The notes beneath the pieces are model-generated. The model was given only the letters and a program-made list of their open reading frames with translations, was not told the DNA's origin and did not search any database. A program made the translations under genes and the position numbers. A stretch of 64,000 nucleotides of DNA from Thermococcus sp. 2319x1 (GTDB lineage: Archaea > Methanobacteriota_B > Thermococci > Thermococcales > Thermococcaceae). Shown piece by piece: positions 43,013 through 64,000 of this stretch (position 1 is its first letter; the number at the start of each line of letters is the position of its first letter). Location of the stretch: positions 1,482,321-1,546,320 of the forward strand of contig NZ_CP012200.1 in NCBI RefSeq assembly GCF_001484685.1, read 5' to 3'.

Positions 43013-46000
43013 ACCACCGCACGACTACGTTCTACGGAAACCGGTTGATACTAGACAAAAAGCCATATTTCGGGCATAGACAACAAATCAGCTTTCCACA
43101 CGACTACGTTCTACGGAAACTTGATGTTCCCAATGTGCAAGGGAGGATAGTTTGGGTCTTTCCACACGACTACGTTCTACGGAAACCTGAAAAGAAGAGC
43201 TCAAAAGTACCTCGTAGTCATAGACGAAAACTTTCCACACGACTACGTTCTACGGAAACTGTAAAAACATCGTAATACAAGACCATGGATGGCATTACGT
43301 TGTCTTTCCACACGACTACGTCCTACGGAAACTCAATAGAAATAATGGACGACAAGTCCAGATATGTGTACAACTTTCCACACGACTACGTTCTACGGAA
43401 ACATAGCACATGGTATCCTTCACAAACACAGAGAGATCTTTCCACACGACTACGTTCTACGGAAACGAACGTCTAGTTTCCCAATCCCCACATCGGACAG
43501 CATGCCTTTCCACACGACTACGTTCTACGGAAACATTACAATATCTCATAGGAGTTGCAGAAGAATATTACGGCTTTCCACACGACTACGTCCTACGGAA
43601 ACGCGGAAACAGATACCGGGTCGCTTAATATCAGAGATGAATCGTTCTTTCCACACGACTACGTCCTACGGAAACCCGGTCTTCAGCTATTCAAGAAGAA
43701 TTAGCCAAGAGGTCGCTTTCCACACGACTACGTCCTACGGAAACTTTTCACTTTTCCTTCGAGGATTTCACTAAGTTGTTCATCTGCTTTCCACACGACT
43801 ACGTCCTACGGAAACCTGAATATCACCGGAAGAGTTCTCTTTCTCTTCTTGCCTACCTCTTTCCACACGATTACGTTCTACGGAAACTTAAACAACTTTG
43901 AAACTTATAAGTTTTGTTAAACAACTACATGCTTTCCACACGACTACGTCCTACGGAAACCGGGCATGCACAACAACTGAAGAGTGCCAAAAAGGTAGAA
44001 TACGTCTTTCCACACGACTACGTTCTACGGAAACAAGTACATAGAAGAATATAGACAAGAATACTGGTGGACCTTTCCACACGACCACGTTCTACGGAAA
44101 CAGAATTAGCAGAAACGCTAGGGTACACCGTGTTGTTCGACTTTCCACACGACTACGTCCTACGGAAACACGGAAAAAACGATCACTCCCACCGAGTTGA
44201 CGATATACTCTTTCCACACGACTACGTTCTACGGAAACGTCACCGCAACGCCAGGTCGCCTTGACGACACAGTCGCTTTCCACACGACTACGTTCTACGG
44301 AAACGATGTTCGGGGTGGGGAAGAGTGCTGGGAAGCGGGGATCTTTTCACACGACTACGTTCTACGGAAACTTTGAGAACATAAGTAGTCCTATGGATGA
44401 CGTAAGGCTATACTTTCCACACGACTACGTTCTACGGAAACGAGTTTCCCGAAAGCTCAAGCAGTGAGCTAATAGAACTCTTCTTTCCACACGACTACGT
44501 TCTACGGAAACCCGCTCTTATCACTCCAAGCGCAACGGTGAGCGGGAGCACGACTTTCCACACGACTACGTTCTACGGAAACACAGCCTCGTTTGGGAAA
44601 TGTCGGGCCAGCTGAAGCCTTTCCACACGACTACGTTCTACGGAAACTCAAATTCGAAATCCACGAAACTAACAGGGTTTTCATCTTTCCACACGACTAC
44701 GTTCTACGGAAACAGTCGCATTCATTGTGTTTCCATAGCCCTTCTCCACCTGCTTTCCACACGACTACGTTCTACGGAAACTTGGCCGATAACACCGAGG
44801 AAAAAATTAAAGAACGCTTAACTTTCCACACGACTACGTCCTACGGAAACCCACGTTTATGTCCAGATCCGAGTTGAACCAATCCTCTTTCCACACGACT
44901 ACGTTCTACGGAAACCCCTATGGTTTTTTCAATTATATTATAGAATTCAACCTTTACTTTCCACACGACTACGTTCTACGGAAACAAGCACGAAGGATGG
45001 TACTTCGATTAGCTTTAAGGTGTTCTCCTTTCCACACGAGTACGTTCTACGGAAACTGGTGATATGGTGGGAGATTGCCGGAGCGACGGTTAGAGACATC
45101 TTTCCACACGACTACGTTCTACGGAAACACTCGGTTTCCTTGCGGTGCAGTCCATGGCGCTTGAAGAAGTCTTTCCACACGACTACGTTCTACGGAAACG
45201 GGGGGAAAACTGGCTTACATTAGATATCGATGTCTACAAAACTTTCCACACGACTACGTTCTACGGAAACATGGTGGTGATGCCTGCAAGGTGGTGTCCA
45301 TGGTGCCTGCTTTCCACACGACTACGTTCTACGGAAACTCGTAGGCAGAGTCCCCATGTAACTGTTCATCAGCTTTGCCTTTCCACACGACTACGTCCTA
45401 CGGAAACCGGGGAAGAGCAGTCGTATATTGAACAAATAGGTGGTGTATACAGCTTTCCACACGACTACGTCCTACGGAAACTTGTAAAACAGTTAGTTAA
45501 AGAGTATGAGGAAGAGGTTAACTTTCCACACGACTACGTTCTACGGAAACATGAAAGCCTCGAGGCACGTTGTGAGGGCCTTCTACTCCTCTTTCCACAC
45601 GAATACGTCCTACGGAAACTGATCTCTTAGAACCACGTCAAATTGAACAAATAAGCGACTTTCCACACGACTACGTCCTACGGAAACATGGTCTTTGAAT
45701 CATCCACTGGGCGAAAAAGTGTTCTACTTTCCACACGACCACGTTCTACGGAAACATTAAGTTCGAGGTTCACGAAACCAACCGAGCCTTCAGGCTTTCC
45801 ACACGACCACGTTCTACGGAAACAGGTAAGTGTGGGTATAGGTAGTGTGTGTGCGTAAGGCTTTCCACACGACCACGTTCTACGGAAACTTCCCGCACCG
45901 GATATGCCACTGTAAACGGCTTTTGGTATTTCTTTCCACACGACCACGTTCTACGGAAACGTTTAGTGCCTTCTTCTCAAGCTGTTTTATGTACGCTTCT

Positions 46001-46235
46001 TCTTTCCACACGACCACGTTCTACGGAAACTGGTTCCAAGATCAACGCAAACAGGCTTGCTGAGTACGCTTTCCACACGACCACGTTCTACGGAAACATG
46101 CTTTGAGTATCTGCACGATCCTGTACGTTGCATAGACGACTTTCCACACGACCACGTTCTACGGAAACAACGAGATCCAGGCTCGTTATTTACAACGGAA
46201 GGAGGGCTTTCCACACGACCACGTTCTACGGAAAC
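43013..46235 (-). CRISPR. CRISPR array 1: 47 repeats, 46 spacers
   Basis: 29-base repeats that on the plus strand begin CTTTCCACACGAC and end TTCTACGGAAAC; spacers are about 35-45 bases. The transcribed strand is minus (repeat GTTTCC...GTGGAAAG, the 8-base tag at its end), with the leader at 46236. The trailer end repeat (43013-43041) is degenerate at its left side. Two single-base variants occur: GACCACG in R16 and in all eight leader-proximal repeats (45727-46235), and GTCCTACGG in a scattered subset. Single odd repeats are at 43859 (GATTACG), 44343 (CTTTTCACAC), 45028 (GAGTACG) and 45591 (GAATACG). Confidence 0.98.
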
Positions 46236-46334
46236 CCTCGACTTTTTTCCCCGGATGCCTAAATGGAATAACGTAAGAACTCCTATTTAAACCTTGCCCC
46301 GAAAACCCATGGCACTGCAGCCCATTTATAAACC
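46236..46334 (-). promoter_or_regulatory. CRISPR leader 1
   Basis: These 99 bases are identical but for one position (46309) to 58484-58582 beside array 2. On the minus strand they contain two TATA-like elements, GGTTTATAAATGGG (46321-46334) and GGTTTAAATAGG (46282-46293). The latter is about 47 bases from the first repeat, so transcripts should start about 20 bases before it. The repeat-proximal end is CGGGGAAAAAAGTCGAGG. Confidence 0.85.
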
Positions 46335-46696
46335 TGACGCAAAAATAGAGCACCTACGAAAATGCTTGAAATTACCTACAAAAGCTTTTGGTCGGTTAAA
46401 AATTGCCCTCCAAAAATCGAAACCCTACTCAATAAATTTGGGCCTGAAAAAACAATTAAAAACAAAATCCGGCTGCAGATATGGCTTTTCAACCCTCCAA
46501 AATCCCGGAATTCAGGGCCGTTTTCACGTCTGGAACCTTTCACGCCTTTTCTGCAAAACGTGTCCATCCGGCGAATCCTTACCACCGGCGTGGTAAACGG
46601 AAAACGAAAACATTTTTGGCCGTTATAAATCCGGCTTTGAACCTGGAAAACAGTTCAAATCAAAAACGAAAGGTGAGCGGGGAAGAAAACATAAAC
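46335..46696. other. Non-coding stretch between cas5 and leader 1
   Basis: No gene is convincing in these 362 A/T-rich bases. A perfect inverted repeat TTACCAC-CGGC-GTGGTAA lies at 46579-46596, about 100 bases after the cas5 stop. It may be a terminator of the cas operon or part of an extended leader; a related but imperfect sequence occurs near 58827-58843 beside leader 2. Confidence 0.45.
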
Positions 46697-47380
46697 TCAG
46701 AACACGAAAACCGGCTCCTTGTCAAAGAGTAGCACGCTCACCGGGCTGGCCAGCTCTACGAAGCCGCCTGCGAAGGCGATGACCCTCTGGTAGATTGCCC
46801 TCCTGCTCTTCCCGCTGTAGGTGAAATTAACGGGCATCCTGTACTCCCTCGGCGTCAGGTTGTTCCTCCTCATGACGAGGAACCTCGCGCCCCTGGCGTA
46901 CTCCTCAGCCGGGATGATGCTCTTCAGCGTGCTCTCCTCGCCTTCCTCAACATCAACGAGCCCCACCCACTCCCTTTTTGCTGGATAGAGAAGGCTCTCG
47001 CTGTCCCCTATGTAGGGGGTAAAGACCGGGTCGCGGAGGGCATCGTAGGCCCTCTCGACCAGCTCTTCGTCGCCGGCGAAGAACATCCTGTAGTAAGGCC
47101 TGTGGTAGAGCACCTTCGTTATTGGGTAGATGGGGGCATTGGCATTCTTGAATATGGCTGCGGTCTCCTCCACCCTGGCACCGGGGTCTTCGACTATTAC
47201 TCCGTACTTAAGCTCTTCGAGTAGCCTTATGAAGCCCTCCTCGGGCAGACCCATGGCTCCCGCTATCATGCCTATCGCCGTGGTCCTCGGTGGAAAGGGG
47301 TAGCTGTCGAGGAGGAGGGAATTGTAGGGAATCCTGAAGTGCGCCTGCAGGGGCTTTACTTCCACGACGAGGCCAAGCAC
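46697..47380 (-). CDS. cas5: Cas5-family type I Cascade subunit
   Basis: A 227-aa Cas5: the N-terminal RAMP strand and helix read VEVKPLQAHFRIPYNSLLLD, then SYPFPPRTTAIGMIAGAMGL (typical PPxTxxxGL-like Cas5 signature), with conserved LYHRPYYRMFF and a C-terminal beta domain. Cas5 caps the 5' handle of crRNA in Cascade. It looks closest to Cas5 of Cst/Tneap-like type I systems. The GTG at 47380 follows GGTGGGTGAA; the frame is open a little further. It is intact, but its Cas7 and Cas8 partners are damaged, so it may be non-functional. Confidence 0.78.
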   Translation of the reverse strand: MLGLVVEVKPLQAHFRIPYNSLLLDSYPFPPRTTAIGMIAGAMGLPEEGFIRLLEELKYGVIVEDPGARVEETAAIFKNANAPIYPITKVLYHRPYYRMFFAGDEELVERAYDALRDPVFTPYIGDSESLLYPAKREWVGLVDVEEGEESTLKSIIPAEEYARGARFLVMRRNNLTPREYRMPVNFTYSGKSRRAIYQRVIAFAGGFVELASPVSVLLFDKEPVFVF

Positions 47381-47381
47381 T

Positions 47382-47867
47382 TCACCCACCGAGCTCAATA
47401 TTTTGTATCCTCTCCCTCAGCTCCCTCATGCTGAGAACCTCTACCTTCTTCATCCCCTCAAAGGCCTTCTTCAGCTCCTCAACGTTGGCGAAACGGTTTT
47501 CGAAGAGGCCGACGTAGAGCTTCTCTATGTTGTCCTCGAACGTCTCAATCGTTTCCTTGAGGAGGTCAACATCGAGGACGAGCTTTCCGTCAACGTAGCC
47601 GGGCTTAACGCGGAGGGCATCTCCAATGACGGGTATCTTGCGCTTCAGCAGGGCAACCACCATTACCTCGGGGTAGACCTTCGTGAAGAAGTTGCTCAGC
47701 TTGGCTCCACCGTGGTACTGCATTATCGCCTCAAGCAGGGCCTTCAGGCGTCTCTCCCTCTCCTCCTTCGGGAGGAGGTAGAGTGTAACATCCTTCCCAG
47801 TGATGTCCCTCTCCTTTTTAGCCTCATGAACACCATCAATATTTAACCTCCAAATTTTTTCCTTCAA
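47382..47867 (-). pseudogene. Cas7-like fragment lacking the N-terminal half
   Basis: 161 open codons with HEAKKERDITGKDVTLYLLP, LLEAIMQYHGGAKLSNFFTK, VVALLKRKIPVIGDALRVK and a helical tail. I read this as the C-terminal half of a Cas7/Cst2-like backbone RAMP, from position (between cas8-like and cas5) and sequence style. There is no proper start codon: the frame fades into the end of an A/T-rich gene around 47850. Family assignment is moderate. Confidence 0.5.
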
Positions 47868-48261
47868 TCATCATCTTTGCTATTGCAAATGAAGCTCCAA
47901 AATCCATTAACTCATACTCTACTATTTCATCAATCAAATCAACAAGACTTTTTCTATCCTTATTGTAATACAAATCATTTAATACAACAACCAACTCCAC
48001 CCTATTATTCTCCCAATCAATAACTTTCTTCAAAATCTTAAACCCACGTATATTTAACTCTTCCTCATATTCTTTACTGTTAAAAACAAACAGCATATCT
48101 CCACATTCAACGCACCTATACTCAATCACTCCAAATACTTCAACTTCTTCGCTACTCTTCCCTTTTACAATATCAAACCTAAACAATGTTGCCTCATTAC
48201 CGTCTACTCTTTTATCAATCTTAACAGCCTGCTTAATCTCATATCTTTTCATCTTAAACAC
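47836..48261 (-). CDS. A/T-rich gene of unknown function inside the cas operon
   Basis: About 141 aa from GTG 48261, which has GGAGG eight bases upstream; an ATG three codons later is also possible. The protein is charged and beta-rich with one CxxC pair (YRCVECGDMLFVF, about residues 50-62). I recognise no family. Its base composition is strikingly A/T-rich against the G/C-rich cas genes on both sides, so it is probably an insertion from foreign DNA. Its 3' end runs into the Cas7-like fragment. It keeps the operon's orientation and overlaps upstream coding sequence, so it is likely cotranscribed. Confidence 0.5.
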   Translation of the reverse strand: MFKMKRYEIKQAVKIDKRVDGNEATLFRFDIVKGKSSEEVEVFGVIEYRCVECGDMLFVFNSKEYEEELNIRGFKILKKVIDWENNRVELVVVLNDLYYNKDRKSLVDLIDEIVEYELMDFGASFAIAKMMIEGKNLEVKY

Positions 48262-48266
48262 CCTTA

Positions 48267-49233
48267 TCACCTCCTTTTTATTTTTATTCCAAAGTCGAGA
48301 TACTTATCTGTTGCCGTCCAAACACCATTTACCTTAAGCTTAAGCCTGCCATCCGCATCTATGTCATAATCATCAATCTTGCCCTTCTCAATCAATTCAT
48401 CTAAGAAATCAACTGCTTCCTCGACATTTTGTGGAACATTTTGCTTAACCCACTCAACAACATTCTCGTCACTCATTGCCTTTTTGACAAACTCTTTCTT
48501 CTTCTGCTCCCTCTCCTTTTCTCTCTCCGTAAAACTGCTTGGAACCGTAAACGAGGTAAACTTTGACGGTTTTTCCGACCTCCACGGTCTCCTTCAGTAA
48601 TCTCCTGTTCTTGAGGAACTTGACGAACTCGTGAAGAACTGCAAAAAAGGCCTCGTTGGGGTGGTATCTGCTCAGGCTCAGGTTAACACTGAAGTAATAC
48701 CGCCTCTTTCCATTCCTTGTCTCGGCCGTAACCCTGAAGCTTTCCCTCCAGAAGTCGTCCTTGAAGGTTCTTTTGAAGCGCTTCAGCTCTCTCTCTGGGG
48801 CGTCGAAGAAGAAGCGGAGCGTGGAATCTCCAACCGGGACGGTGTAGAGGTAGGCCATTGCGGAGTAGAGCTTGAATGCGTGTTCCAGGCAGAAGTGAAG
48901 CCTCGTGGCATCGCTAACAACGGAGTCTATCTTCCTCTCGAAGGGAAAGATGAACGCCTTATTTTGAACCACTTTGGTTTCTCTTCCGCAGATAGAGCAC
49001 GTCCCCCTTTTCCCATCCGTGAGTCCCCCAAGGATATCCTTGGTTTTGCTCGAAAGCTCGAAACCAAAGACTTTCAACAGGGCCAGGGCATCTTCGTCCG
49101 AATCGACGGGAGCGCCGTTGGCCATCTCCACGACGGGCCTTAGATAGGCCTCTTCAATGACCTCCGGAGTTATTTCCCCTATTTCCTCCTCCCCGAGGAA
49201 GAGCTCGCCGTTTTTGAGATAGGCATCTATCAT
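48267..49233 (-). pseudogene. Cas8-like (Cst1-like) gene, frameshifted or chimeric at its 3' end
   Basis: The first frame (49233-48469, 254 aa) has a zinc-binding motif GTCSICGRETKVVQNKAF with HFCLEHAF, as in large subunits of type I Cascades. It ends with YLVYGSKQFYGERKGEGAEE. In the next frame the sequence continues smoothly as SSFTEREKEREQKKKEFVKK then AMSDENVVEWVKQ and on to KIKRR at 48267; the last 69 codons also form a small open frame with its own ATG at 48476. Either one gene suffered a one-base shift near 48535, or a foreign gene tail was joined here. A complete Cas8 would be about 500 aa. It overlaps the csx1 stop by 4 bases. Confidence 0.5.
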
Positions 49234-50525
49234 TTCCCCTCCCCCAGGGCCCTTGATACCATGGCCTCTATCTCTTTCTTTGCATCGGGTGAGTACCTCA
49301 GGAAGGTGTGTAACCGCGCCTCCCTAATGGCATCCCCAACGTCCCATTCTTCCATTCTGACCTCCGTCGAGTTTGCCTCAAGGCCGGCGTGAGCGAAGAA
49401 GTTTCGAGGGGTTATGCTGGCGTTGGCCTCGTCAAACCTGTAGAATTCCCTCAGGAGCGTCCACCCCGGGAACTGGCCGGAGGAGGCATATTCCGCCGCT
49501 TTCTCCTCCACTTTGTGCAGTTCCACGTTGACCCTTTCCCTTATGGAGCCTCTGAAGAGGGAGTTCGAGAGTTCGTAAAGGGCATCAACACTCGGCGGAA
49601 GTTCCGGCCTGAGACCTTCGAGGACCTTCACCTGGAAGAGGAGCTTCACCAGTGTGCCGAAGCCGGTTCCAAGGGCCAGCTTTCTCTCCACGCGCTTTTC
49701 CGAAACCTCCACGTTTTCCTCCCAGGTTCTCAGGAGCTCTTCAACGGCCTCTTCTATGGCTCCCCCATCCGGGAAGTTCTCAGCGAAGAGGAGGGGCAGA
49801 CCAAAGACCACCGAGCCGATCCAGGCGTCTATTTTTCTCTTTTTATCCCTTATAATATCAAAGGTCTTCAGCTTTCTCTTGAGCTCTCCAAGTACCTTCT
49901 TTTCGATGGAGTAAGGAACGAGGTAATTGCTGAGATCGGGCAGGGGTTCCGAGAGGGGAAGGGGCTCCACGTAAACGTCCTCTATGACGTTTATGCCCAG
50001 CTCCCTCGTTATCCCCGGAACGAACGGGTCGGAGTTGTAAGCTAAGAAGCGGGTTCTGTTCAGGAGCGCCCGTATGCCGAGGAGCTCGCGGAGGGCCCTG
50101 TGAATGAGGAACGTTACGTAGTTGAGGCCGTGGGTGATGTCAAAGTGGACCTCAAGCTCTCCCTTTGGAGGGATTATCTGGGAGAGGCGGTAGAGGACGT
50201 AGTGGTAGGTGTCGAGGGCGCTCCCGGAGAACGTGCCGTTGGAGAAGCTTCCGATTCCCGGCACTATTAAAACGTCCACTTCCCTCCCGGTTCCGATCTC
50301 CTCGAGGAATTCCTCAACTTTGCCGCGTATGCTCTCCCTGAGGGCTTCGAGAGAGGTAAAATCAACCCCGAGGGTCTCGGGGAGGACTATGACGCTCCAG
50401 TCCGGCTCTATGACCCTCTGGAGTATTGGAAGGGTTGACTTGTTCGCGAGCCTCACATTCCCAAACCGGTATTTGGTCTCCGTCCACCTCTCGAAGGCGC
50501 CCCAGGAGGCTATGAGGAGCTTCAT
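49230..50525 (-). CDS. csx1: Csx1-type CARF-HEPN ribonuclease
   Basis: A 431-aa effector activated by cyclic oligoadenylate. The N-terminal CARF domain (about residues 1-190) shows KLLIASWGAFERWTETKYRF and the ligand motif HFDITHGLNYVTFLIHRAL. The C-terminal HEPN domain has ITPRNFFAHAGLE, the R-x4-H RNase motif. In type III systems Cas10 makes the activator on target recognition and Csx1 then cleaves RNA. The ATG at 50525 (MKLLIASWG) overlaps the csm5 stop (ATGA), in the position where many III-A loci carry csm6. Confidence 0.85.
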   Translation of the reverse strand: MKLLIASWGAFERWTETKYRFGNVRLANKSTLPILQRVIEPDWSVIVLPETLGVDFTSLEALRESIRGKVEEFLEEIGTGREVDVLIVPGIGSFSNGTFSGSALDTYHYVLYRLSQIIPPKGELEVHFDITHGLNYVTFLIHRALRELLGIRALLNRTRFLAYNSDPFVPGITRELGINVIEDVYVEPLPLSEPLPDLSNYLVPYSIEKKVLGELKRKLKTFDIIRDKKRKIDAWIGSVVFGLPLLFAENFPDGGAIEEAVEELLRTWEENVEVSEKRVERKLALGTGFGTLVKLLFQVKVLEGLRPELPPSVDALYELSNSLFRGSIRERVNVELHKVEEKAAEYASSGQFPGWTLLREFYRFDEANASITPRNFFAHAGLEANSTEVRMEEWDVGDAIREARLHTFLRYSPDAKKEIEAMVSRALGEGK

Positions 50526-51733
50526 TCCACCTTCACCCATCCCATGGGCATTCCATCGGCAACCCTGCGCGTCTTGGGGAAGTCTCTGGAAACGCCCCTG
50601 CCTCCGGGCTTTCTGCCCAGTCCGAGCTCCCTCCGTGTGCTTTCCCATTTCTTCTCCTTTCTGAGGAGTATTCCAACTGTAGTCGATATCCAGCCGCTTC
50701 CCCAGCCGAGGCGGAGCTTTCTGCCCTCGGGAAGGGTTCTATAGAAGGAGCTGACGCTGGTCCTATAGGGCCCATGCTTGTGAATTTCATCCAGTTCCGC
50801 CTTTATTACCTCACCGTAGAACTCGTCCACGGCCTTCCAGATGAAGTCTTCGAAGACCTCTTCCGGCTTTCCATAGTTGTTAAGGCACTCCCAGAGGAGG
50901 CCGTTAAAGTGGTTTCCGTTTAATCTCAGGGTCTCCCCGTCCACGGCCAGCTCGAACTCCACCGTAGTTTCTGGTTTTAGGGCCTCGACCCAGGTGGGAA
51001 TCTTAACGTCCGCCCCTACTATGTTAACGCGGTAGACCGCGAGGTGCTTTTTTCCGATGGGTTCAGAGTCCCTAACCACAAGGGCGCGCATGGGGTCGCG
51101 CTTTGGCTCGTACCTCACGCCGGGCTCCATGCCAAAGACTATCGCCTCAAGGAGGTCGTCGGCGCTCTTTGTGTCGAACCTTTTCTCCTCTTCGAGCCGT
51201 GAGTTGATGTAGTTGAGGTAGTATTCAACCAGATGCGTGTTCCATCCAACGGAGTTTTTCAGTTTTTCAATGTTTTTCCGTTGCTCATTGTTGGCACTTC
51301 TCGCAACGCTGCTGAGCACGTCCATGACAGTTGCAGTATCTCCGCACTCCTTCAAAACCCTGTAGAACACCGCGGTTCTTATTGCTCCCTTGATGGACGA
51401 GCCCGGGATGTAGGGCTTTCCATTGGATTTTATGAAGTTCTTTATCCTCATGCTCTCCCTGCCAGCTTCTCCGATGAGGGGGAGCGTGTATAGGGTGTAG
51501 TCCTTCACGTTGAGGTTGAGGGAATCTATGTAGCCCTTGAAGACGTAGCTGTTGCCGGGAGGGTCCTTCAAGAGGGTTAGAATTTCTTTAAGCGGTATCC
51601 CGAGGTTGAGGAGATCCTCCGTGAGCTTTCTGGTGTCGAGGACGAATATCATGCCATCACCGGGATAAATGTCAACGCTTGTGATCTCGCTTCCGTCCCC
51701 TATGTGGAGGGGAAAGAGAACTGTAAGCCTCAT
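50522..51733 (-). CDS. csm5: Type III-A effector subunit Csm5
   Basis: A 403-aa RAMP protein: an N-terminal FPLHIGDGSEITSVDIYP, the RAMP signature KPYIPGSSIKGAIRTAVFYR (about residues 107-126) and a Gly-rich RKLRLGWGSGWISTTVG near residue 345. Csm5 caps the 3' end of the crRNA in the Csm complex. It overlaps csm4 by 4 bases. Confidence 0.88.
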   Translation of the reverse strand: MRLTVLFPLHIGDGSEITSVDIYPGDGMIFVLDTRKLTEDLLNLGIPLKEILTLLKDPPGNSYVFKGYIDSLNLNVKDYTLYTLPLIGEAGRESMRIKNFIKSNGKPYIPGSSIKGAIRTAVFYRVLKECGDTATVMDVLSSVARSANNEQRKNIEKLKNSVGWNTHLVEYYLNYINSRLEEEKRFDTKSADDLLEAIVFGMEPGVRYEPKRDPMRALVVRDSEPIGKKHLAVYRVNIVGADVKIPTWVEALKPETTVEFELAVDGETLRLNGNHFNGLLWECLNNYGKPEEVFEDFIWKAVDEFYGEVIKAELDEIHKHGPYRTSVSSFYRTLPEGRKLRLGWGSGWISTTVGILLRKEKKWESTRRELGLGRKPGGRGVSRDFPKTRRVADGMPMGWVKVE

Positions 51734-53967: not shown

Positions 53968-56325
53968 TCACCTCCTAACAGCCATCAACACAACCTTAAA
54001 CACGCCGTCCACGAAGTATATCTCCTGGGGACGGCCCTCTTTAATGGCCCTAACGTCTATCCCGACAAGTTTCGGGAAGAGGCCTCCAAGTTTGTGCCTC
54101 CCGAGGAGGTAGGCCGTTAAATATGCCCACCTGACGCTCGAAGGATCCCTAACGTAGAGCTCCCTGAACTGGAGAATCCTCCAGAGGAGGGCTTTCTTTC
54201 CTTCGAGGTCTTTTACCAACTTCCCGTCGCCCGCGTAAACCTTCCTCGCATAGTTCTTCCAGAGCTCCTTGTATTCGTCCCATGTGTAGCTGGCAGGGTG
54301 GTTGTCCATTTCCGGCCTCGTCCTCTCGATGATGTAAACCCTGTTCCTCCCCTCGTCCTTGGCAACATTGAGGCGTTCGCTTACGACGTCGGCCATTCTG
54401 TAGATGGGGGTCTTTTCATCGAAGTAGCCGAGCGCCATCGAGACCGTCCTTCCACCTCCGGTGTAGGCTTTGAAGGCTTCTCTGATCCTGAAGGCGAGCT
54501 CAAAGACCTGATTCCAGGAGCCAACTATGAAGAAATCGTCGCCACCGGCGTAGACCACAACGATGTCCGGCTTATCCGGCCAGGGTTTGAGAGAGGGGAC
54601 TTCCCCAATGAGGTCTCCATACTTCCCATGGATGACCCCCTTGAGGTAGACCTTGAAGAAGTAGTCCATGAAGCGGGAAGCCGTGGCGAGCTTTGAGAGG
54701 CTGTCCATGTTCTTGAAGAACTCGCCAAGATTGTCAACGTCCCCTTTGAGGACTCCTATCCTCTTTGTACCGGAGGAAGCGTTGGCAAGCTCTTCGAAAG
54801 TGGCCACCCCGGTCTTGCCCTCCTTGTAGTAGTCGGCCACCGGATAGGGTATGAAGACGGTGTCCTCGGGGATGTCCCCGGGGGCATCGAGGGTGTTCTT
54901 GAGGAGGAGGAACTCGCCGGCGGGGCTCCCCCTCTCGTGGGGAATGAGATACCTGAAGGGGCCGGTGGTAATGCCTTCTTCCCCGTGGGCCTTCTTGTCA
55001 AGGATAAAGCCCTTTAGCTTCGGCAGCTTTTCTCCGAGCTTCGCCAGCTCGTTGCACCTCTTGCAGGCCTGGGCCTCTGGGTCATCCGAGTAGCTGAAGT
55101 GCTCAAGCTCGCTTTTTGGAACTTCTCTGCCACAAACAGGGCACTCCTCGAGCCTTCCCGGGCCTTTTGGGGCCTCAAAGATGCCCTTCACTTCCCCAAA
55201 GCGGCGGAGCTTTCTGGTGTTTAGCCTGCTCTTGAGCCTCATCCGGGCCTCTTTGAAGAGGTTTTTGCCTCCTTCCTTTCCGAGCTCCCTTCCGGCAACC
55301 TCCTCCCACTCGAGGGCAAGGTAGAGCTTTTCGTCGAAGTTGCGGTAGAGCCATTCGGAAACCCTGAGCCTTATCTTCTCAAGCTCTCTCCTCGCTTCCT
55401 CGGTGTTCTGGGCAACGATGAGGAAGTGGCCCCCGGCGTTGAAGACAACGTTGGCCCTCGTCAGGCCGAGACGGGTGAGGATTTCGAGCACTACATCCCA
55501 GCCGATCAGCTCGAGGTAGGCGCTCCTGGCGCGGAGGTACTTGAGCGTCCCCTTGCCGCTCACGCCATAGATGAAGTCCTGAATGCCGGAGAAATCGCCC
55601 TCGATGAGGAGGAAGCGCTTCTCGTTCCTGCACCTTCCGGCCTTCACGTCTCCAGCGGTACAGTTCGCCCTCGCCATCGCTAAGGCTATCGCGGAGGTCA
55701 TCTTCATGTGGTCGTAGAGGGATATGACGTTGTTCTCGGCCGTGAAGGAGCTCACGAAGGTGAGGTACTTTTCAAGCACCGGGAGCAGGCGGTCCACCTT
55801 AAAGGGCACTCCCGAGAGCTCCCTGGCGAGACCCTCGACGGTTTTCCGGTAGTCAACGCGGACTTCCTCCGGCGGGAGTGGATGGGGCAGTTCATCTGGT
55901 GAATCGTTGACCCCCTTGAATTCCAGCTCCCTGAGCTGGTAGGCCATTTTTTCGTTGAACACGGAACGCAGCGGCCTTGAAGCCTGAGGCTGCCCCTCCT
56001 CCCTCTCGCTTGAAGAGAAGTTGTCGGCTTCATAGACTATCCAGAGGGCGTTGATGACCTCTTCCTCAGTTAGGCCGAAGCGGGAGGGCTTTATTCTTTC
56101 CACTTCCTTCCGGATTTCCCCATCATTCATGTCACCGGCATGGTGAAAGCGGGAAAAGAGGGCCATCAGCTCAAACTCCGGTTTTCCTGTTTCTCTTGCA
56201 AGCTCAAGAAGAAACCTGTATCCCTGAAGCGGATGGCTCTCCTTTCCGTATTTCCCCGCCCTCTGGACGGGCTTGCCTATGTCGTGGAAAAGCCCCCCGA
56301 GGGCCACCAGATCATAAAAATCCAA
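53968..56325 (-). CDS. csm1: Cas10 of type III-A (Csm1): HD and GGDD cyclase
   Basis: A 785-aa large subunit. The TTG at 56325 is the best start: GGAGGTGA lies just before it and the longer frame to 56391 runs into cas6. The N-terminal HD domain has GLFHDIGKPVQ (His14-Asp15) for ssDNA cleavage. The first Palm domain starts near LLIEGDFSGIQDFIYG (about 240). A zinc ribbon CPVC (about 395) and CKRC (about 421) follows, and the second Palm carries VVVYAGGDDFFIVG (about 590-603), the intact GGDD centre that makes cyclic oligoadenylates. All catalytic residues seem present. Confidence 0.95.
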   Translation of the reverse strand: MDFYDLVALGGLFHDIGKPVQRAGKYGKESHPLQGYRFLLELARETGKPEFELMALFSRFHHAGDMNDGEIRKEVERIKPSRFGLTEEEVINALWIVYEADNFSSSEREEGQPQASRPLRSVFNEKMAYQLRELEFKGVNDSPDELPHPLPPEEVRVDYRKTVEGLARELSGVPFKVDRLLPVLEKYLTFVSSFTAENNVISLYDHMKMTSAIALAMARANCTAGDVKAGRCRNEKRFLLIEGDFSGIQDFIYGVSGKGTLKYLRARSAYLELIGWDVVLEILTRLGLTRANVVFNAGGHFLIVAQNTEEARRELEKIRLRVSEWLYRNFDEKLYLALEWEEVAGRELGKEGGKNLFKEARMRLKSRLNTRKLRRFGEVKGIFEAPKGPGRLEECPVCGREVPKSELEHFSYSDDPEAQACKRCNELAKLGEKLPKLKGFILDKKAHGEEGITTGPFRYLIPHERGSPAGEFLLLKNTLDAPGDIPEDTVFIPYPVADYYKEGKTGVATFEELANASSGTKRIGVLKGDVDNLGEFFKNMDSLSKLATASRFMDYFFKVYLKGVIHGKYGDLIGEVPSLKPWPDKPDIVVVYAGGDDFFIVGSWNQVFELAFRIREAFKAYTGGGRTVSMALGYFDEKTPIYRMADVVSERLNVAKDEGRNRVYIIERTRPEMDNHPASYTWDEYKELWKNYARKVYAGDGKLVKDLEGKKALLWRILQFRELYVRDPSSVRWAYLTAYLLGRHKLGGLFPKLVGIDVRAIKEGRPQEIYFVDGVFKVVLMAVRR

Positions 56326-56329
56326 TGTA

Positions 56330-57043
56330 TCACCTCCCGATGGGATTGAGAAATCCAAAGCCAAGGCTGTTCTTCTCTCCCAGCCCGACATCCATTATAA
56401 AGCGGTAAAATTTCCTTTCCTCGGGCTTTATGTGTTCCTTCTCCAACAGCTCCCAGTTGGAGCCGATGACTGGAAAGGGAACGCCGTTCTTGACTACCCT
56501 CACATAGACATCTATCTTCCCGTTTGGGCGCACCTTGGGTATTACCCTGTCGAAAATCTGCCCGTCGAGGGTGAACTCCTCGCCGTAGAATGCGCTATAT
56601 TTTTTCTCGGCGTTCTCTTTAAGTCGTTCAAGGAAGAAGAGCAGGTCCCTGTGCTGGTGGAGCTTGAAGTACTCGTTTTTACTGGCATTTCTGTAGAGAA
56701 CCACCGGTGAACCTGTCTGGAAAGCCTTCCTCAACGGAAGCCGGAACTTCTTGAGCTCCGATATTCCGTACTCCTCCTTCCCTATGTAGACCGTCTCCCT
56801 TTTCCTGATCGCCGAGTAAAGCGCCCTTATGAAGTCCGGATCCGGCGAGGATACCAGAAACGTTGGCCTCCCTCTCTTGTCGATGAAGAAGTCAGAGAAT
56901 GTGAAGAACTTGAACCTTGGCTCATCGTGCCTCTCACCGTACTCGCTATCCTTCAGCATGCTGTAGATAAACCCTTGGACGGCATGCTTGTTGGGGCGCG
57001 AGAACGTGCCGTTCTCTATGTTCAGTGAGATTTTGAGTCTCAT
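56330..57043 (-). CDS. cas6: Cas6 crRNA-processing endoribonuclease
   Basis: A 237-aa double-ferredoxin-fold RAMP: MRLKISLNIENGTFSRPNKH at the start and the C-terminal Gly-rich loop VGLGEKNSLGFGFLNPIGR. It cuts pre-crRNA inside the repeat, leaving the 8-base 5' tag; here it should serve both arrays. The start is the ATG at 57043 after GTGTATGGA; the frame is open to 57064. First gene of the cas operon, five bases before the csm1 start. Confidence 0.9.
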   Translation of the reverse strand: MRLKISLNIENGTFSRPNKHAVQGFIYSMLKDSEYGERHDEPRFKFFTFSDFFIDKRGRPTFLVSSPDPDFIRALYSAIRKRETVYIGKEEYGISELKKFRLPLRKAFQTGSPVVLYRNASKNEYFKLHQHRDLLFFLERLKENAEKKYSAFYGEEFTLDGQIFDRVIPKVRPNGKIDVYVRVVKNGVPFPVIGSNWELLEKEHIKPEERKFYRFIMDVGLGEKNSLGFGFLNPIGR

Positions 57044-57093
57044 TCCATACACCCGGCAGTGCACACTGCCAAAGAACTATTAGGATTCCGGTG

Positions 57094-57205: not shown

Positions 57206-58483
57206 CTTCCCACACGACTACGTTCTACGGAAACTGGGGCATGCAGAGTTACTTTAAGGCAAGGGTTATAGCGACCTTTCCACACGACTACGTTCTACGG
57301 AAACTTGGATATTGGGACGACAAAATCGTTGAAGTAAACGTTCTTTCCACACGACCACGTCCTACGGAAACAGGGACGGAATCAGCTTCGAGGAGGTCAT
57401 TAGAGAAGCAGCTTTCCACACGACCACGTTCTACGGAAACACAGCTTCGATTACTTCTTCTGGTGTGACAAGAAATGGTTCTTTCCACACGACCACGTTC
57501 TACGGAAACTTGGACGACAGCATCATTGTTGAAGTAGAGCTTGCGGATTTCTACTTTCCACACGACTACGTCCTACGGAAACATGGTTTCCTATTGAGAG
57601 TGTATGAGGAGACCGAGGAAATGCTCTTTCCACACGACTACGTTCTACGGAAACGTAGGTGGAGCTCTTGGTGGATTTTTGAGGGTTTGATAGAGCTTTC
57701 CACACGACTACGTTCTACGGAAACGCTGGTCAGGGTGGGGCAGAATGGTCGTAGCAATTCAAAATATCTTTCCACACGACTACGTTCTACGGAAACGCCG
57801 GGTCGTAGGCTAAAACGAACATGTGTGGGAAAGCGCTTTCCACACGACTACGTTCTACGGAAACTAATGGAGTGATTAGGGGAGTTGTGCAGAAGACGGT
57901 TTTAGTCTTTCCACACGACTACGTTCTACGGAAACCGATGAACTAAAGAATGCTACAAAAGAGATAGCGGCAAAGGCCTTTCCACACGACTACGTTCTAC
58001 GGAAACTTAGAGCCGAAAGGTTAGAATACATGATAAGCATAGCCTTTCCACACGACTACGTTCTACGGAAACTAGCCACACTACCTATATCCCACACACA
58101 CTTACCGCACACACTCTTTCCACACGACTACGTTCTACGGAAACTTTCGAGATGAGCGCCGAGATAACCGAGATTTTTTCAACTTTCCACACGACTACGT
58201 TCTACGGAAACATCAGTAGCAAACTACGACCCAAGAGTTGCAATAGAAACTTTCCACACGACTACGTTCTACGGAAACTTCCTCGATGAACCGCTGGGTA
58301 GCTTCTCTTAGTGCCTCCGCTTTCCACACGACTACGTTCTACGGAAACTCTCTGAAGATATAGTCAACGTATACGCTTTTGTATTGCTCTTTCCACACGA
58401 CTACGTTCTACGGAAACGGAGGGATAACTAGAGAAGGAAAAGGCAGGTATAGAACTTTCCACACGACTACGTTCTACGGAAAC
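57206..58483 (-). CRISPR. CRISPR array 2: 19 repeats, 18 spacers
   Basis: Same repeat family as array 1, read on the minus strand, with the leader at 58484. The trailer repeat (57206-57234) has one change (CTTCCCACACG). Repeats 3-5 carry GACCACG, the variant found at the leader end of array 1; the 13 leader-proximal repeats are all of the major type. Transcription proceeds toward cas6, whose promoter starts about 100 bases past the last repeat. Confidence 0.98.
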
Positions 58484-58582
58484 CCTCGACTTTTTTCCCC
58501 GGATGCCTAAATGGAATAACGTAAGAACTCCTATTTAAACCTTGCCCCGAAAACCCGTGGCACTGCAGCCCATTTATAAACC
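58484..58582 (-). promoter_or_regulatory. CRISPR leader 2
   Basis: Matches leader 1 over 99 bases with one difference, including both TATA-like elements in the same places. Beyond 58582 the two regions diverge sharply, which sets the length of the conserved leader. Confidence 0.85.
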
Positions 58583-59038
58583 CAACCCGAAAAGCAAGGA
58601 GCTGTTGAAAGTCTCCTCTATCCTATCGGTGCACTGAAACAGCTCAACATATTATTCCAAACGATCGAAAACCGTTTAAACCGATTTAAATTGTCAAAAA
58701 CCAGTAAAAAATTAATCATGGCATTTTTACGGGATCTCAACCTTTCAATCTCCTCTCAAATTCCACCGCCACCGGTTTTGGGCTGTTTCAGGCGTTGTAT
58801 TTAAAATGGATACATCTGGTATGGGATTACCACCGGACAGGTAAACAGAAATCAAAAATCGCTTTCCGGGAAGCTTTACATGTTAAACTACTCCAGAAGC
58901 ATTCTCCATCGAATCCCAGGACGAACAGGTTCGTACCGGCAGTTGGGAAAAGCGGTAAAGCCCTTCCCCTCCCCCGGTAGCACCGCCCGATGCCCGGGCA
59001 CTTCGATCATATTGAGGGATGTGAAGGCGTCGGACAGT
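58583..59038. other. Non-coding stretch between leader 2 and the CARF-PIN gene
   Basis: I find no gene in 456 bases. The part near the leader is A/T-rich with phrases such as GATCGAAAACCGTTTAAACCG; near 58827 is TTACCACCGGACAGGTAA, an imperfect version of the hairpin at 46579-46596. Past 58900 it becomes G/C-rich toward the end of the CARF-PIN gene. Confidence 0.4.
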
Positions 59039-60481
59039 TCAGCCCTCCGAGAGGACCCTGAAGATCCTTCCGTACTCGAATCCCACCAGCCTTATCTTTT
59101 CCCTTTCCCAGTCCTCGGAGTTCTTTCCGTGCCATACCCCGTAGAGCTTGTAGGAGGCGAAGTTAAGCTCCCCGAGGGTGGCAGCGAGGACGTAAAGGGT
59201 GTCCCTTAGCGCCTCCCAGCTCCCCTCAAAGGTTCTCCCGAAAGAAAACTCCCACTCCAGCCTGAAGGGTACGAGCCCGCTTCCTCTCAGGGCTTTCATC
59301 TCGGCGTAGGCCCTGTCGTCGAAGGTAATAACCATCACGTTTGCATCCTTCTCCTCGGCGAAGGCCTTGTAGTCGAGGGCTATCTTGGTGTCTCCGGAGT
59401 GGTCCTTCCCGGAGCTCGTCCTTTCAGCGCCGCGGGAGCGCAGTTTTTCCAGCTCGACCTGGCCGAGGGAGGCGAGCCTCGCCTTTGGGGTGGGAGCGTT
59501 TGAATAGATCCCAAGGGAGCTTTTGTAGGGAAGCTTTTTGTTCACCATCCTTCCCAGTTCAAGGGCCACTTCGTCGGAGTAAACGAAGTCGAAGATCAGG
59601 CTTCCGCCCCTGTAGAAGGCCTTCTCCTCCAGAACCCGTGAGGGAATCCTCATCAGGAGGGCGTTGGTGTCGAAGCCGATGTAGAGGGGCCTGCCGCTCT
59701 CAAGCAGGGCGAAGACCTTCTTCACGAGCTCGTTCCAGTTTTTGAAGCTCACCATTCCGCCGGCTATCAGGGCCTCCTTAACCATCCCATGCCCGCCGTG
59801 TTCCTCGGGAATTTTCACGAAGTCCTCGAGGTGGAAAGAAGCCCTTTCTCCCAGGGAGGCACTCCCTATGGGCAGGCTCCTCAGAGAAACCCCGAACTCT
59901 GTTGTTCCATCTATGTAGAGGGAATCCAGGATCGCCATCAGCTCCTCCCTCGTGACCGTGAAGGAGCCCGGGCTTTCCCTCCTTCTCCATCTCTGGATAT
60001 GAGAGGGCCTTCCCAAGAGCTCTCTGCCCGTGAAGAGCCTCTGCTTGCTCATCGGTACCTCAAAGAGTAGCTTTCCAACGTAGTCCCTCCAGTCGGAGAG
60101 GTGGAGGTAGGTGATCTCGGCGTTTGAACTTGCCGCGGCCCCGAACAGGACGGCGCTCATGAACTTCCGCCCCGGGATTATGTCCACGACGACCTCCTTT
60201 CCGGCGAGCCTCTCAAGGAGAGAGAACACCCTATCCCTGAGCTCATCTGGCTTGGCCTCCTCGACCTTCAGCGATTCGTCGGAGTGAATCCTTATCTCCA
60301 TTCCATAGGCTCTGGAAAGCCTCTCTATTAGTTCTCTGACCCTATCCAGCTCGTTCTTAACGCCGTCATTCCATATGAGGTAGACCTCCTCCGGAACCCA
60401 GCCGTGGACCTCCACCAGGTACCAAAGGGGATTAAAGACCGCCTCGGGAGAAGTTCCGACAACCGTCACGTATGCCCTCAT
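59039..60481 (-). CDS. CARF-PIN protein, predicted cyclic-oligoadenylate-controlled nuclease
   Basis: A 480-aa protein. Residues 1-145 look like a CARF domain: AYVTVVGTSPEAVFNPLWYL at the first ligand loop and VVVDIIPGRKFMSAVLFGAA (about 97-116) at the second. Residues 160-245 form a linker with basic helix and winged-helix-like features (HIQRWRRRES). Residues 265-400 look like a PIN nuclease with candidate acidic residues Asp271 (GFDTNALL), Glu304/308 (SDEVALELG), Asp364 (GDTKIALDY) and Asp388/389 (VITFDDRAYAEM). A predicted ligand-switched RNase of type III immunity. It ends beside array 2 and starts divergently from the cmr operon. Confidence 0.75.
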   Translation of the reverse strand: MRAYVTVVGTSPEAVFNPLWYLVEVHGWVPEEVYLIWNDGVKNELDRVRELIERLSRAYGMEIRIHSDESLKVEEAKPDELRDRVFSLLERLAGKEVVVDIIPGRKFMSAVLFGAAASSNAEITYLHLSDWRDYVGKLLFEVPMSKQRLFTGRELLGRPSHIQRWRRRESPGSFTVTREELMAILDSLYIDGTTEFGVSLRSLPIGSASLGERASFHLEDFVKIPEEHGGHGMVKEALIAGGMVSFKNWNELVKKVFALLESGRPLYIGFDTNALLMRIPSRVLEEKAFYRGGSLIFDFVYSDEVALELGRMVNKKLPYKSSLGIYSNAPTPKARLASLGQVELEKLRSRGAERTSSGKDHSGDTKIALDYKAFAEEKDANVMVITFDDRAYAEMKALRGSGLVPFRLEWEFSFGRTFEGSWEALRDTLYVLAATLGELNFASYKLYGVWHGKNSEDWEREKIRLVGFEYGRIFRVLSEG

Positions 60482-61160: not shown

Positions 61161-61218
61161 TATAGGGGTGTATCCTAATGCTCAACATAGCCTATTTTTC
61201 CTTGCCGGAGGTGTTTTG

Positions 61219-62634
61219 ATGTACGAGGCGACATTTGAGCTCGAAGCCATAACACCTCTTTTCATGCGCGGTGCTGATCAAAGAAAGGCCGAGTTTCGCT
61301 CCGCCAGCGTCAAGGGTGTAATGCGCTGGTGGTTCCGCGCTTTGGCCGGCAACTACCTCGGGAACAGCATAAGCAAGCTTAGAGAGATAGAAGGAACGAT
61401 CTTCGGCTCTGCTGGAAGTGGAGGGGCGAGAAGAAGCAGAATCCTCATAACAGTTAAATCCCAACGAGAGCCAGGTAATCTTTTGGATGTGAACAAAGTG
61501 GAAGTGGTAACAAGGAGTAGATCCAAACAAATCGAACTAGTCCCAAAATACAACGACGTTGAATATCTGGGTTTTCCAACAAGCTATCTGTTTTTTTCAG
61601 TAAAAATGATGCTTGATGAGTTTCTTAAAGTGGAACTGAGAGAGCTTCTAGGAGGTTATAATCTGAGAAACGGGTTTCAGAACCAAAAACAGTTAGAGTC
61701 GCTAACTAAAAGTTTCAGAGAAAGGATTTCAAACCGGGTCCCAACGTACTATCCGCCGGGTTCAAAATTTGAAGTCACATTGAGGAGCTTTGACAGGACT
61801 TCCTTTATACTAGGGGTGTCATCTCTCTGGCTTGCCACCGCATATGGGGGCTTTGGATTCAGAAGCAAGAGGGGGGCCGGAAGTCTGATAATCAACCAGG
61901 TAAAGGGAATATCAGCCGATCCAGAGATTGAGCAGACAATCCAAAAGATAGCTAAGCTGAATTACAAGGGATTAGCGACTTTTCTGGATTTGGTTGGCCC
62001 GTTTATTGAGACACTCAGGGATGAGGAGTCTCAACCAGAGTCCACAAAAATTCCCAAGTATCCGACACTCTCCACAATGAAAGTTCTGGAATGTAGAAAA
62101 TCATTCCACAGCCCCTTAGATGCACTTCGTGAACTCCAATCTGCATACGCCGGAAGTTACAATCGCCATAAGAGGAAGTATGAGGGTGGTGTACGCTTTA
62201 AATTCGCTGATAGGAAATTCTCACATAGTACTGTCAAAAATCTGAGTAATGGGGAAACTTCCAGAGAGAAGAGGTATTACTTTGGACTTCCTGTCGTTTA
62301 CGCTAACTGGAAGATAGAGGTCATTGGACTCGGAAAAGGTAAGAACAACAGTGACGAAGAATATCCCAGGAGGGCTTCATCGATAATCCTAACAGTAAAG
62401 AAGGAGGGCCACCAGTACAGGCCCATAATAGTTGTTTTTCCCTATGAGTATCTTCCCAAGCACGAGGGCCAGTTTAAAGCTCACAAAACGGGAGGAGCAT
62501 CTAGGGAAGAGGCCATCATAACCGTGAAAAACAACGAAAAACTATTCGATAATGAGGCTTTCGTTGATACGTTTTTGCCCCAGGTGATTAAGGAATTTAA
62601 AGCTAAGGATTTCGAGGAGGTGTTCTCCCAATGA
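61219..62634 (+). CDS. cmr1: Type III-B effector subunit Cmr1
   Basis: A 471-aa RAMP: MYEATFELEAITPLFMRGAD at the start, SASVKGVMRWWFRALAGNYL (RAMP signature) and GGFGFRSKRGAGSL (Gly-rich loop, about residues 211-224). Cmr1 is unique to III-B and sits at the 3' crRNA end of the Cmr complex. The ATG at 61219 has GGAGGTG upstream; the frame is open further to 61168. The middle of the gene is more A/T-rich than cmr2. It overlaps cmr2 by 4 bases (ATGA). Confidence 0.88.
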   Translation: MYEATFELEAITPLFMRGADQRKAEFRSASVKGVMRWWFRALAGNYLGNSISKLREIEGTIFGSAGSGGARRSRILITVKSQREPGNLLDVNKVEVVTRSRSKQIELVPKYNDVEYLGFPTSYLFFSVKMMLDEFLKVELRELLGGYNLRNGFQNQKQLESLTKSFRERISNRVPTYYPPGSKFEVTLRSFDRTSFILGVSSLWLATAYGGFGFRSKRGAGSLIINQVKGISADPEIEQTIQKIAKLNYKGLATFLDLVGPFIETLRDEESQPESTKIPKYPTLSTMKVLECRKSFHSPLDALRELQSAYAGSYNRHKRKYEGGVRFKFADRKFSHSTVKNLSNGETSREKRYYFGLPVVYANWKIEVIGLGKGKNNSDEEYPRRASSIILTVKKEGHQYRPIIVVFPYEYLPKHEGQFKAHKTGGASREEAIITVKNNEKLFDNEAFVDTFLPQVIKEFKAKDFEEVFSQ

Positions 62635-64000
62635 GCATCTGGAAGGCTTATTCAGAGGCCCTGCTTGAAGTTGCACCCTCAAAGATACTCTCATCCCTCA
62701 CCAACAAACACAAACTTCCCGGCCTATGGAAACGCCTCTCCAGCTATCCTGCCGAAGAAAAACTTGACAGGTTCATCCTCAGGCATCCGATAAGTGGAGA
62801 AGAAAAGCCACTAAAGGCACTCACCGCCCTATGGTTCGGCTCTCCCGACAGAAGAAAAAACCTCCCCGAAGCACTTGAAAGGGCCGAGGAGAGGGTTGCA
62901 GGCGAACTCGCATCGGCCAGTTCAATGGAGGACTTCGCCAGACTGTGGAACGGGCTTCCCGAGAAACTCAGAAGAGCTTACGAGGAGGAGCTTGAGAATG
63001 CTGGCATAGAGAACGCACCTTTGCTCGCCGAGGAACTCGTTCACTTTCCGGCGGATCCCTTCGTCCCTGACCACGACTGGCTGAGCAGGCTCGACGTTTA
63101 CGCCGTCCTCAGGCTGGGAAATGCAAAGCTGGTGCGTTTCAAGCTTTCCCCAGTCCAGGGGTTCATAGGCAACGCGAGAAGCGAGCGCGACCTCTGGGCC
63201 GGGAGCCACATGCTGAGCCTTCTTACTTACATAGCCATATCCAAGATGTGGCGCGCTGCCGGGCCCAACGCATTGATATTTCCCCACCTGCGGAACCAGC
63301 CCTTCTTCGAGCACGAGCTCGGGGAGCTGGAAAATAGGGATTCCCTTGACGTGGCCAACATACCCAACAAAGTCCTTGCGGTAGTTCCAGAGAATGTGGA
63401 CGTTGAAAAGCTGGCCCGAAAGATTGAAGATGGAATACGCGACTTCCTAGAGCGCCTTTTTGAGTCCGCTTGGAAGTTTTATAGGTCAAGTGACGAATTA
63501 AGTGAAGGATTTGAGATTAAGGAGGTATACAGGGAGACAGTCAGGGGCTACTTTTCGATAATCGTTGAGGAGATCCTCCTCTCGAAAGTCGAGGTAATCG
63601 AGGGGAACCTCAGGAAGTACTTGGAATCCCTTCCGGAAGAGTTCGAGGACAGGGTTCACCACTACCCCGAGCTCTTCTCCATCCTCGACCAGCTGACCGA
63701 TTTTAAGTCTGCGGAACACTTCCCGCCGGAGCAGCCGCCAGGTCACAAGTGCACCCTCTGCGGCGAGAACCTCGCCATCGGTGGTGATGACTATTCAAAG
63801 GTCAAAACGGGATGGGACAGCCTGAGAAAAGGACTGAGGAAACGTGGGGTTTACGACATCAAGGACAGGGAGCATCTCTGCCCCATCTGCCTCTCGAAGA
63901 GGTTCTATCCAAGGTTCTATGCCCTATGGAAGGAAGACTACCAATGGCTCACCAGGGATTACGGGGCAATAGCCGACGAGGCACTTGAGGAGCATAGAGC
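62631..64000 (+). CDS. cmr2: Cas10 of type III-B (Cmr2), 5' part, cut by window end
   Basis: 456 codons are open to the window end. The N-terminus (MSIWKAYSEALLEVAPSKIL) is followed by DPFVPDHDWLSRLDVYAVL and the first Palm start LVRFKLSPVQGFIGNARSER with DLWAGSHMLSLL. A zinc ribbon comes next: CTLCGENLA (about residue 373) and HLCPICLSKR. No HDxxK-like His-Asp pair is seen in the first 165 residues. The GGDD part lies beyond the window. Second gene of the cmr operon. Confidence 0.9.
   Translation, partial: MSIWKAYSEALLEVAPSKILSSLTNKHKLPGLWKRLSSYPAEEKLDRFILRHPISGEEKPLKALTALWFGSPDRRKNLPEALERAEERVAGELASASSMEDFARLWNGLPEKLRRAYEEELENAGIENAPLLAEELVHFPADPFVPDHDWLSRLDVYAVLRLGNAKLVRFKLSPVQGFIGNARSERDLWAGSHMLSLLTYIAISKMWRAAGPNALIFPHLRNQPFFEHELGELENRDSLDVANIPNKVLAVVPENVDVEKLARKIEDGIRDFLERLFESAWKFYRSSDELSEGFEIKEVYRETVRGYFSIIVEEILLSKVEVIEGNLRKYLESLPEEFEDRVHHYPELFSILDQLTDFKSAEHFPPEQPPGHKCTLCGENLAIGGDDYSKVKTGWDSLRKGLRKRGVYDIKDREHLCPICLSKRFYPRFYALWKEDYQWLTRDYGAIADEALEEHR

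Follow-up and report, generated by a model that had tools for sequence, protein, structure and literature searches.

The gene at 59039-60481 (minus strand) of the window, the 64,000-nucleotide stretch of Thermococcus sp. 2319x1 DNA that we analysed, encodes a CARF-PIN protein of the catalogued but little-studied CARF_m1--CARF_PIN family. We consider it quite probable that this protein is a fused type III CRISPR effector, in which cyclic oligoadenylate (cOA) made by Cas10, most likely cA4, switches on a PIN RNase.

The ORF has an ATG start and codes for an intact protein of 480 amino acids, with exactly the coordinates given in the original prediction. The protein matches the PADLOC CARF_m1--CARF_PIN profile (PDLC01973) over its full length and in the same domain order (E=1.8e-210; protein residues 1–477 of 480 on model positions 1–464 of 465), and the PADLOC CARF_PIN profile with E=5.5e-105. 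It shows no structural difference from the family, and it carries Ile102 and Ala329 at strongly conserved positions. Neither Pfam nor NCBIfam contains a model that matches it significantly. Scanning genomes with one sequence yielded no relatives and an alignment-based search was required; among viral contigs we found no CARF-PIN relatives. The ring nuclease Crn1/Sso2081 gave a weak sequence match to residues 4–126 (E=0.04). Matches to TAL effectors obtained with phmmer were rejected as a repeat artefact, since the single stretches all fail alone.

The CARF and PIN architecture proposed in the original prediction is borne out by structure prediction. An AlphaFold2 (AF2) model built from 63 alignment rows had a mean pLDDT of 96 and a pTM of 0.93, with both folds predicted at very high confidence, and the PIN half modelled alone reached a pLDDT of 94. 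The model comprises a CARF domain with Rossmann-like alternation (residues 1–155; 60017-60481, minus strand, as are all features of this gene), a linker with small beta elements (residues 172–242; 59756-59968) that in alignments corresponds to the N-terminal part of split PIN genes, described below, a PIN nuclease core placed by alignment, AF2 and Foldseek (residues 260–410; 59252-59704), and a family-specific C-terminal extension defined by alignment (residues 417–480; 59042-59233). When the model was compared with the PDB using Foldseek, ranks 1–5 were all SiRe_0806, a CARF-PIN protein of Sulfolobus islandicus, in apo (9JXW) or cA4-bound (9JXX) form; both entries were released on 2025-07-23 under the name 'PIN domain-containing protein'. 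The match extends over the entire chain (E as low as 6.7e-17, TM 0.72 by target, 15–16% identity), and the CARF motif of SiRe_0806 reads DITPGRK. SiRe_0806 is the shorter protein (its entry has 429 aa), it is only about 15% identical to the window protein, and a sequence profile matches it just weakly (E=0.0012, with a best stretch of 0.28).

The ranks that follow SiRe_0806 are other cOA-binding CARF proteins, and the CARF domain of the model aligns with those of Cam1, Crn1/Sso2081, Csa3, Can2 and Card1. The structure-prediction check thus finds a Rossmann-like CARF fold that matches CARF proteins with bound cOA. Can2 and Card1, which pair a CARF domain with PD-(D/E)xK, and Cam1 share the CARF fold and have cA4-bound structures among the matches, but each has its own effector domain or membrane helix, and only the CARF part aligns well. 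Crn1/Sso2081 likewise shares the CARF fold, but it is a standalone CARF protein with no nuclease domain.

The two stretches singled out earlier as CARF-like loops (residues 7–22 and 97–116) coincide with the most conserved N-terminal motifs of the family, T6-V8-G9-T10...N17...W20 and D100...P103-G104-R105...F107-M108-S109-A110. Motif I (residues 6–12, TVVGTSP; 60446-60466) consists of near-invariant columns. Motif II (residues 100–110; 60152-60184) reads DIIPGRKFMSA in the window protein and DITPGRKFMSA in the other fused Thermococcus-type relatives; every residue of the ligand loop D-x-T-P-G-R-K is therefore kept except T102, where codon 102 (60176-60178) is ATC, for Ile, and nearly all relatives have Thr. 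A CARF domain of this kind might also act as a ring nuclease, so that the protein would silence itself by cutting its own activator. The Foldseek matches do include the ring nucleases Crn1/Sso2081 and Sis0455, and haloarchaeal homologs are annotated in the database as 'CRISPR-associated ring nuclease'. However, the fold is common to all CARF domains, a database annotation is not evidence of activity, and T102I falls in the ligand loop, and we regard self-silencing as unlikely.

For the PIN half, we aligned 38 sequences from several archaeal lineages, most of them about 20–25% identical to the window protein. Ten columns are invariant: D271, E308, D364, D388, R335, I367, W422, W450, K453 and W458. 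Four of the acidic residues picked out in the original prediction are thus retained throughout, namely D271 (59669-59671), E308 (59558-59560), D364 (59390-59392) and D388 (59318-59320), while two others dropped out: E304 is lost in a fused relative (L009) and D389 is not conserved. Foldseek with the PIN half alone again returned SiRe_0806, followed with weak E-values by the PIN nucleases of the exosome, Utp24 and Utp23.

FEN-like DNases and the site-specific VapC toxins both belong to the PIN fold. Given this span, the PIN domain could have as its main target DNA, or one particular folded RNA (a tRNA or rRNA, for example), instead of bulk ssRNA, and the C-terminal extension, with its invariant W422, W450, K453 and W458, could shape the choice of substrate. 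Such a target seems rather improbable to us: apart from SiRe_0806, the structural neighbours, all of them weak, are PIN proteins of RNA processing (exosome, Utp24, Utp23), and type III PIN effectors have been classed, by prediction, as RNases (PMC12669027).

The genomic setting fits a type III effector. Two neighbouring type III systems had been proposed here, and we found intact III-A and III-B loci. The CARF-PIN gene lies between CRISPR array 2 (57275-58593), whose repeat family is that of array 1 (43088-46345), and cmr1 (61168-62634, plus strand), as originally placed, and it is divergent from the cmr operon. Cmr1, the first gene of the III-B operon, was identified by profile, as was Cmr2/Cas10b (62631-64000, plus strand), a protein of 954 aa that extends beyond the window and carries GGDD at residue 668. 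Beyond array 2 the III-A locus contains, all on the minus strand where coordinates are given, Cas6 (56330-57064), the Cas10 protein Csm1 (53968-56391; HD at residue 36, GGDD at residue 616) and a CARF9-HEPN RNase of the Csx1/Csm6 type (49230-50648), together with Csm5; Cas6 and Csx1/Csm6 were identified by profile, and both Cas10 assignments rest on profile plus motif. With GGDD present in both Csm1 and Cmr2, the cyclase motifs of the Cas10 pair are intact. Csx1/Csm6, the other cOA-type effector of the locus, resembles the CARF-PIN protein in joining a CARF sensor to an RNase beside type III genes, but its nuclease domain is HEPN and not PIN, and its CARF domain belongs to another family (CARF9). 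Adjoining the III-A operon, at 46697-49233, the matches to the Cas8b and Cas7b models are partial; the type I-B genes there appear incomplete, which suggests a decayed I-B module.

We searched 94 Thermococcaceae genomes for the fused protein and for Cas10. The fused gene occurs in 19, including one carrier that has no PIN core and one fragment in an 80%-complete genome. Cas10 was detected in 18 of these 19 and in 17 of the 75 others (Fisher p=7.5e-9, an indicative value only, as the test takes genomes as independent and ignores relatedness). Every fused gene on a long enough contig (17/17) has cas10 within about 15 kb. Because relatives adjoin III-A only (L042, L048), III-B only (L038, L040, L046, L049) or both (L044), the fused gene accompanies III-A and III-B loci alike and no exclusive Cas10 partner can be named, in agreement with the earlier suggestion that it could serve either Cas10.

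We favour the effector reading because the fold matches cA4-bound SiRe_0806, the fused gene is linked to Cas10 and the cyclase motifs are intact. In the proposed mechanism, Cas10 would be activated at its GGDD domain once the III-A or III-B complex recognises target RNA. Motif I and the D-x-T-P-G-R-K loop of a CARF dimer would bind the resulting cyclic oligoadenylate, most likely cA4, and the bound dimer would allosterically activate a metal-dependent PIN nuclease that would use D271, E308, D364 and D388. The activated PIN domain would then make non-specific cuts in RNA, in parallel with Csx1/Csm6, the HEPN RNase encoded at this locus. We favour cA4 as the ligand because a survey of archaeal type III loci found no effectors activated by cA3 or cA6 (PMC11229360). 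For the window protein itself, we infer dimerisation, the cA4 ligand, the RNA substrate and full activity of the copy. Against the effector reading stand the split relatives found in genomes with no detectable Cas10, the substitutions T102I and Q329A, and the identity of about 15% to the cA4-bound structure.

The two substitutions raise the possibility that this particular copy is weakened or altered, with T102I affecting ligand binding or Q329A affecting the PIN domain and Csx1/Csm6 doing the work instead. Among 17 full-length fused proteins, three columns would be unanimous but for the window copy, which has F81L, T102I and Q329A, and it is the sole fused member substituted at T102 or Q329. 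The L003 protein, a relative, is 68% identical to the window protein. Thr102 of the DITPGRK loop is also kept in nearly all split relatives, and Gln329 is present in all 37 other aligned PIN halves. The window codon 329 (59495-59497) is GCT, for Ala; because a change from Gln to this codon requires at least two base changes, Q329A is no simple sequencing error. On the other side, the reading frame is unbroken, none of the remaining invariant residues has changed and the fold is predicted with confidence; a split protein from Archaeoglobaceae (L057) also departs from Thr at 102, with DMMPGRK. Judged from the alignment, T102I and Q329A are a warning, short of proof, that ligand binding or activity may be altered, but we think an impaired copy rather unlikely. 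Gln329 and Arg335 form a signature of the PIN half that we noticed in the present alignment, and the window protein keeps Arg335. Because this signature is not a published defining feature, Q329A leaves the family membership of the protein intact.

The fused gene was absent from the 12 congeneric genomes in which we sought it. This absence suggests that the gene arrived in the window genome horizontally, a history with which an altered copy would also be consistent. In a separate observation, one fused relative (L017:1501-2427, genome G032) has an in-frame loss of residues ~250–421, which is exactly the PIN core, with the deletion junction at similar 'NWxEL/WEEL' stretches. By its sequence, this is a natural PIN-less CARF protein, in which the CARF domain and the C-terminal extension are left.

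In most lineages, the two halves are separate adjacent genes, for a CARF protein of about 157 aa and a PIN protein of about 345 aa, as judged with half-profiles over all retrieved loci. The CARF gene comes first and the PIN gene follows; the two overlap at 51 of 56 places and lie within 10 bases of each other at 3 more. PADLOC independently assigns the split CARF protein to CARF_m1, and the split PIN genes match the PIN half of the PADLOC CARF_PIN model (E=5.9e-32 for the haloarchaeal and 1.4e-16 for the Thermococcus gene). A PADLOC search with the standalone PIN partner returned no separate model; the standalone CARF_m1 is modelled. In a tree of 67 sequences, rooted only at its midpoint and with long branches at depth, the Thermococcaceae pairs form one clade (100/100), and the fused genes form another together with L055 (99/97). 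We rejected L055 as a split pair: the end of a CARF domain stands at the start of its PIN ORF, which marks it as a frame-broken fused gene. The fused clade also includes a sequence from Jordarchaeum (L053), which makes horizontal transfer likely.

Of the 94 Thermococcaceae genomes, 80, spread over five of six genera, have the PIN half of the pair, which shows no positive link to Cas10 (26 genomes with, 54 without). Every standalone Thermococcaceae CARF gene whose flank we inspected is followed by a PIN gene, and a gene for a Cys-rich DUF2284-like protein precedes the pair in 13 of 14 loci examined (L021–L035). DUF2284-like, CARF and PIN genes thus make up a conserved, near-core three-gene operon in this family. 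The genome of the window has its own split pair, outside the window at about 1820776-1822247 of the contig (G000:C1; L033:5777-7248) and some 275 kb from the CRISPR locus, where it adjoins genes that by their translations are radA/nucS-like, a non-CRISPR setting. In other lineages split pairs do occur with type III genes, near csm genes (L057, L058) or cmr genes (L073).

Haloarchaea carry the PIN half in 37 of 244 genomes (~15%; a few are fragments). Neither the PADLOC Cas10 model nor the Pfam Cas10-Cmr2 palm2 model matched any of the 244. We considered whether the Cas10 model is simply blind in haloarchaea and set this aside, as the second model also gave 0/244 and both match control archaea; some doubt is left, since no matching control is haloarchaeal. 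The pairs often sit in defence islands, beside BREX genes, DrmE (DISARM-like) or UvrD/PD-(D/E)XK genes. At about one third of the haloarchaeal loci, AAA/DUF4143, VWA and HEAT genes precede the pair, and an ADP-ribosylglycohydrolase is frequently present as well. A recurrent cassette, AAA/DUF4143 - VWA - HEAT - ADP-ribosylglycohydrolase - CARF - PIN, is seen at L063:1865-11094, with similar arrangements at L065, L068, L082 and L097. A CD-NTase as the source of ligand for these pairs was tried and rejected: SMODS domains occur in 6 of 37 carriers and in 22 of 207 other genomes (p=0.40), which is no association. In Thermococcaceae we obtained only weak SMODS matches, in frames of about 450–500 aa, and these are probably CCA-adding enzymes.

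Since split relatives occur in genomes with no detectable Cas10, membership in the family does not by itself prove a ligand made by Cas10. The whole family could sense something else, such as RNA ends or another nucleotide (compare the divergent CARF domain of RtcR), with the fused form merely recruited to CRISPR loci. The independence of the Thermococcaceae pair from Cas10 and the presence of the pair in haloarchaeal genomes that match neither Cas10 model would fit such a ligand. We nevertheless find it distinctly improbable for the family as a whole: the fused form and Cas10 go closely together, csm or cmr genes also adjoin the split pairs found in Archaeoglobaceae, Methanoperedens and Freyarchaeota, and the closest structure is bound to cA4. 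For the fused gene we therefore retain Cas10-made cOA as the probable signal. The Cas10-free pairs likely follow the same sensor-plus-nuclease logic. We put at about even the chances that the commonest form of the family is a Cas10-independent, two-gene CARF and PIN RNase triggered by a nucleotide or an RNA end, from which the type III-linked fusion of the window would be a derived branch.

The original prediction called this system under-described, which holds in part. Two PIN-linked CARF families were noted by Makarova et al. in 2014 (PMC4012209), a 2025 paper (PMC12669027) names CARF-PIN as one of the RNase effectors of type III systems, PADLOC catalogues the family, and a distant member has been crystallised with cA4. 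On the other hand, we found no paper on the SiRe_0806 structure (9JXX) and no published biochemistry on PIN-type CARF effectors in the open-access literature. That literature also yielded no description of the split, Cas10-independent pair; the 2020 CARF classification lay outside this search, and the novelty of the pair is unproven. CARF_m1 was presumably defined in that work (Makarova 2020).

The window locus, in which two Cas10 proteins are joined by a single HEPN effector and a single PIN effector, offers a clean setting for the fused gene, while the Cas10-free split form is the more novel lead. The contrast lies within a single family, in which the fused gene follows Cas10 and the pair is kept in 54 Thermococcaceae genomes and in haloarchaea with no Cas10 detected. 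If the Cas10-free pairs are functional, their CARF sensor must be fed by something other than Cas10, and a signalling pathway that has until now been linked mostly to type III CRISPR would, if this is true, become wider.
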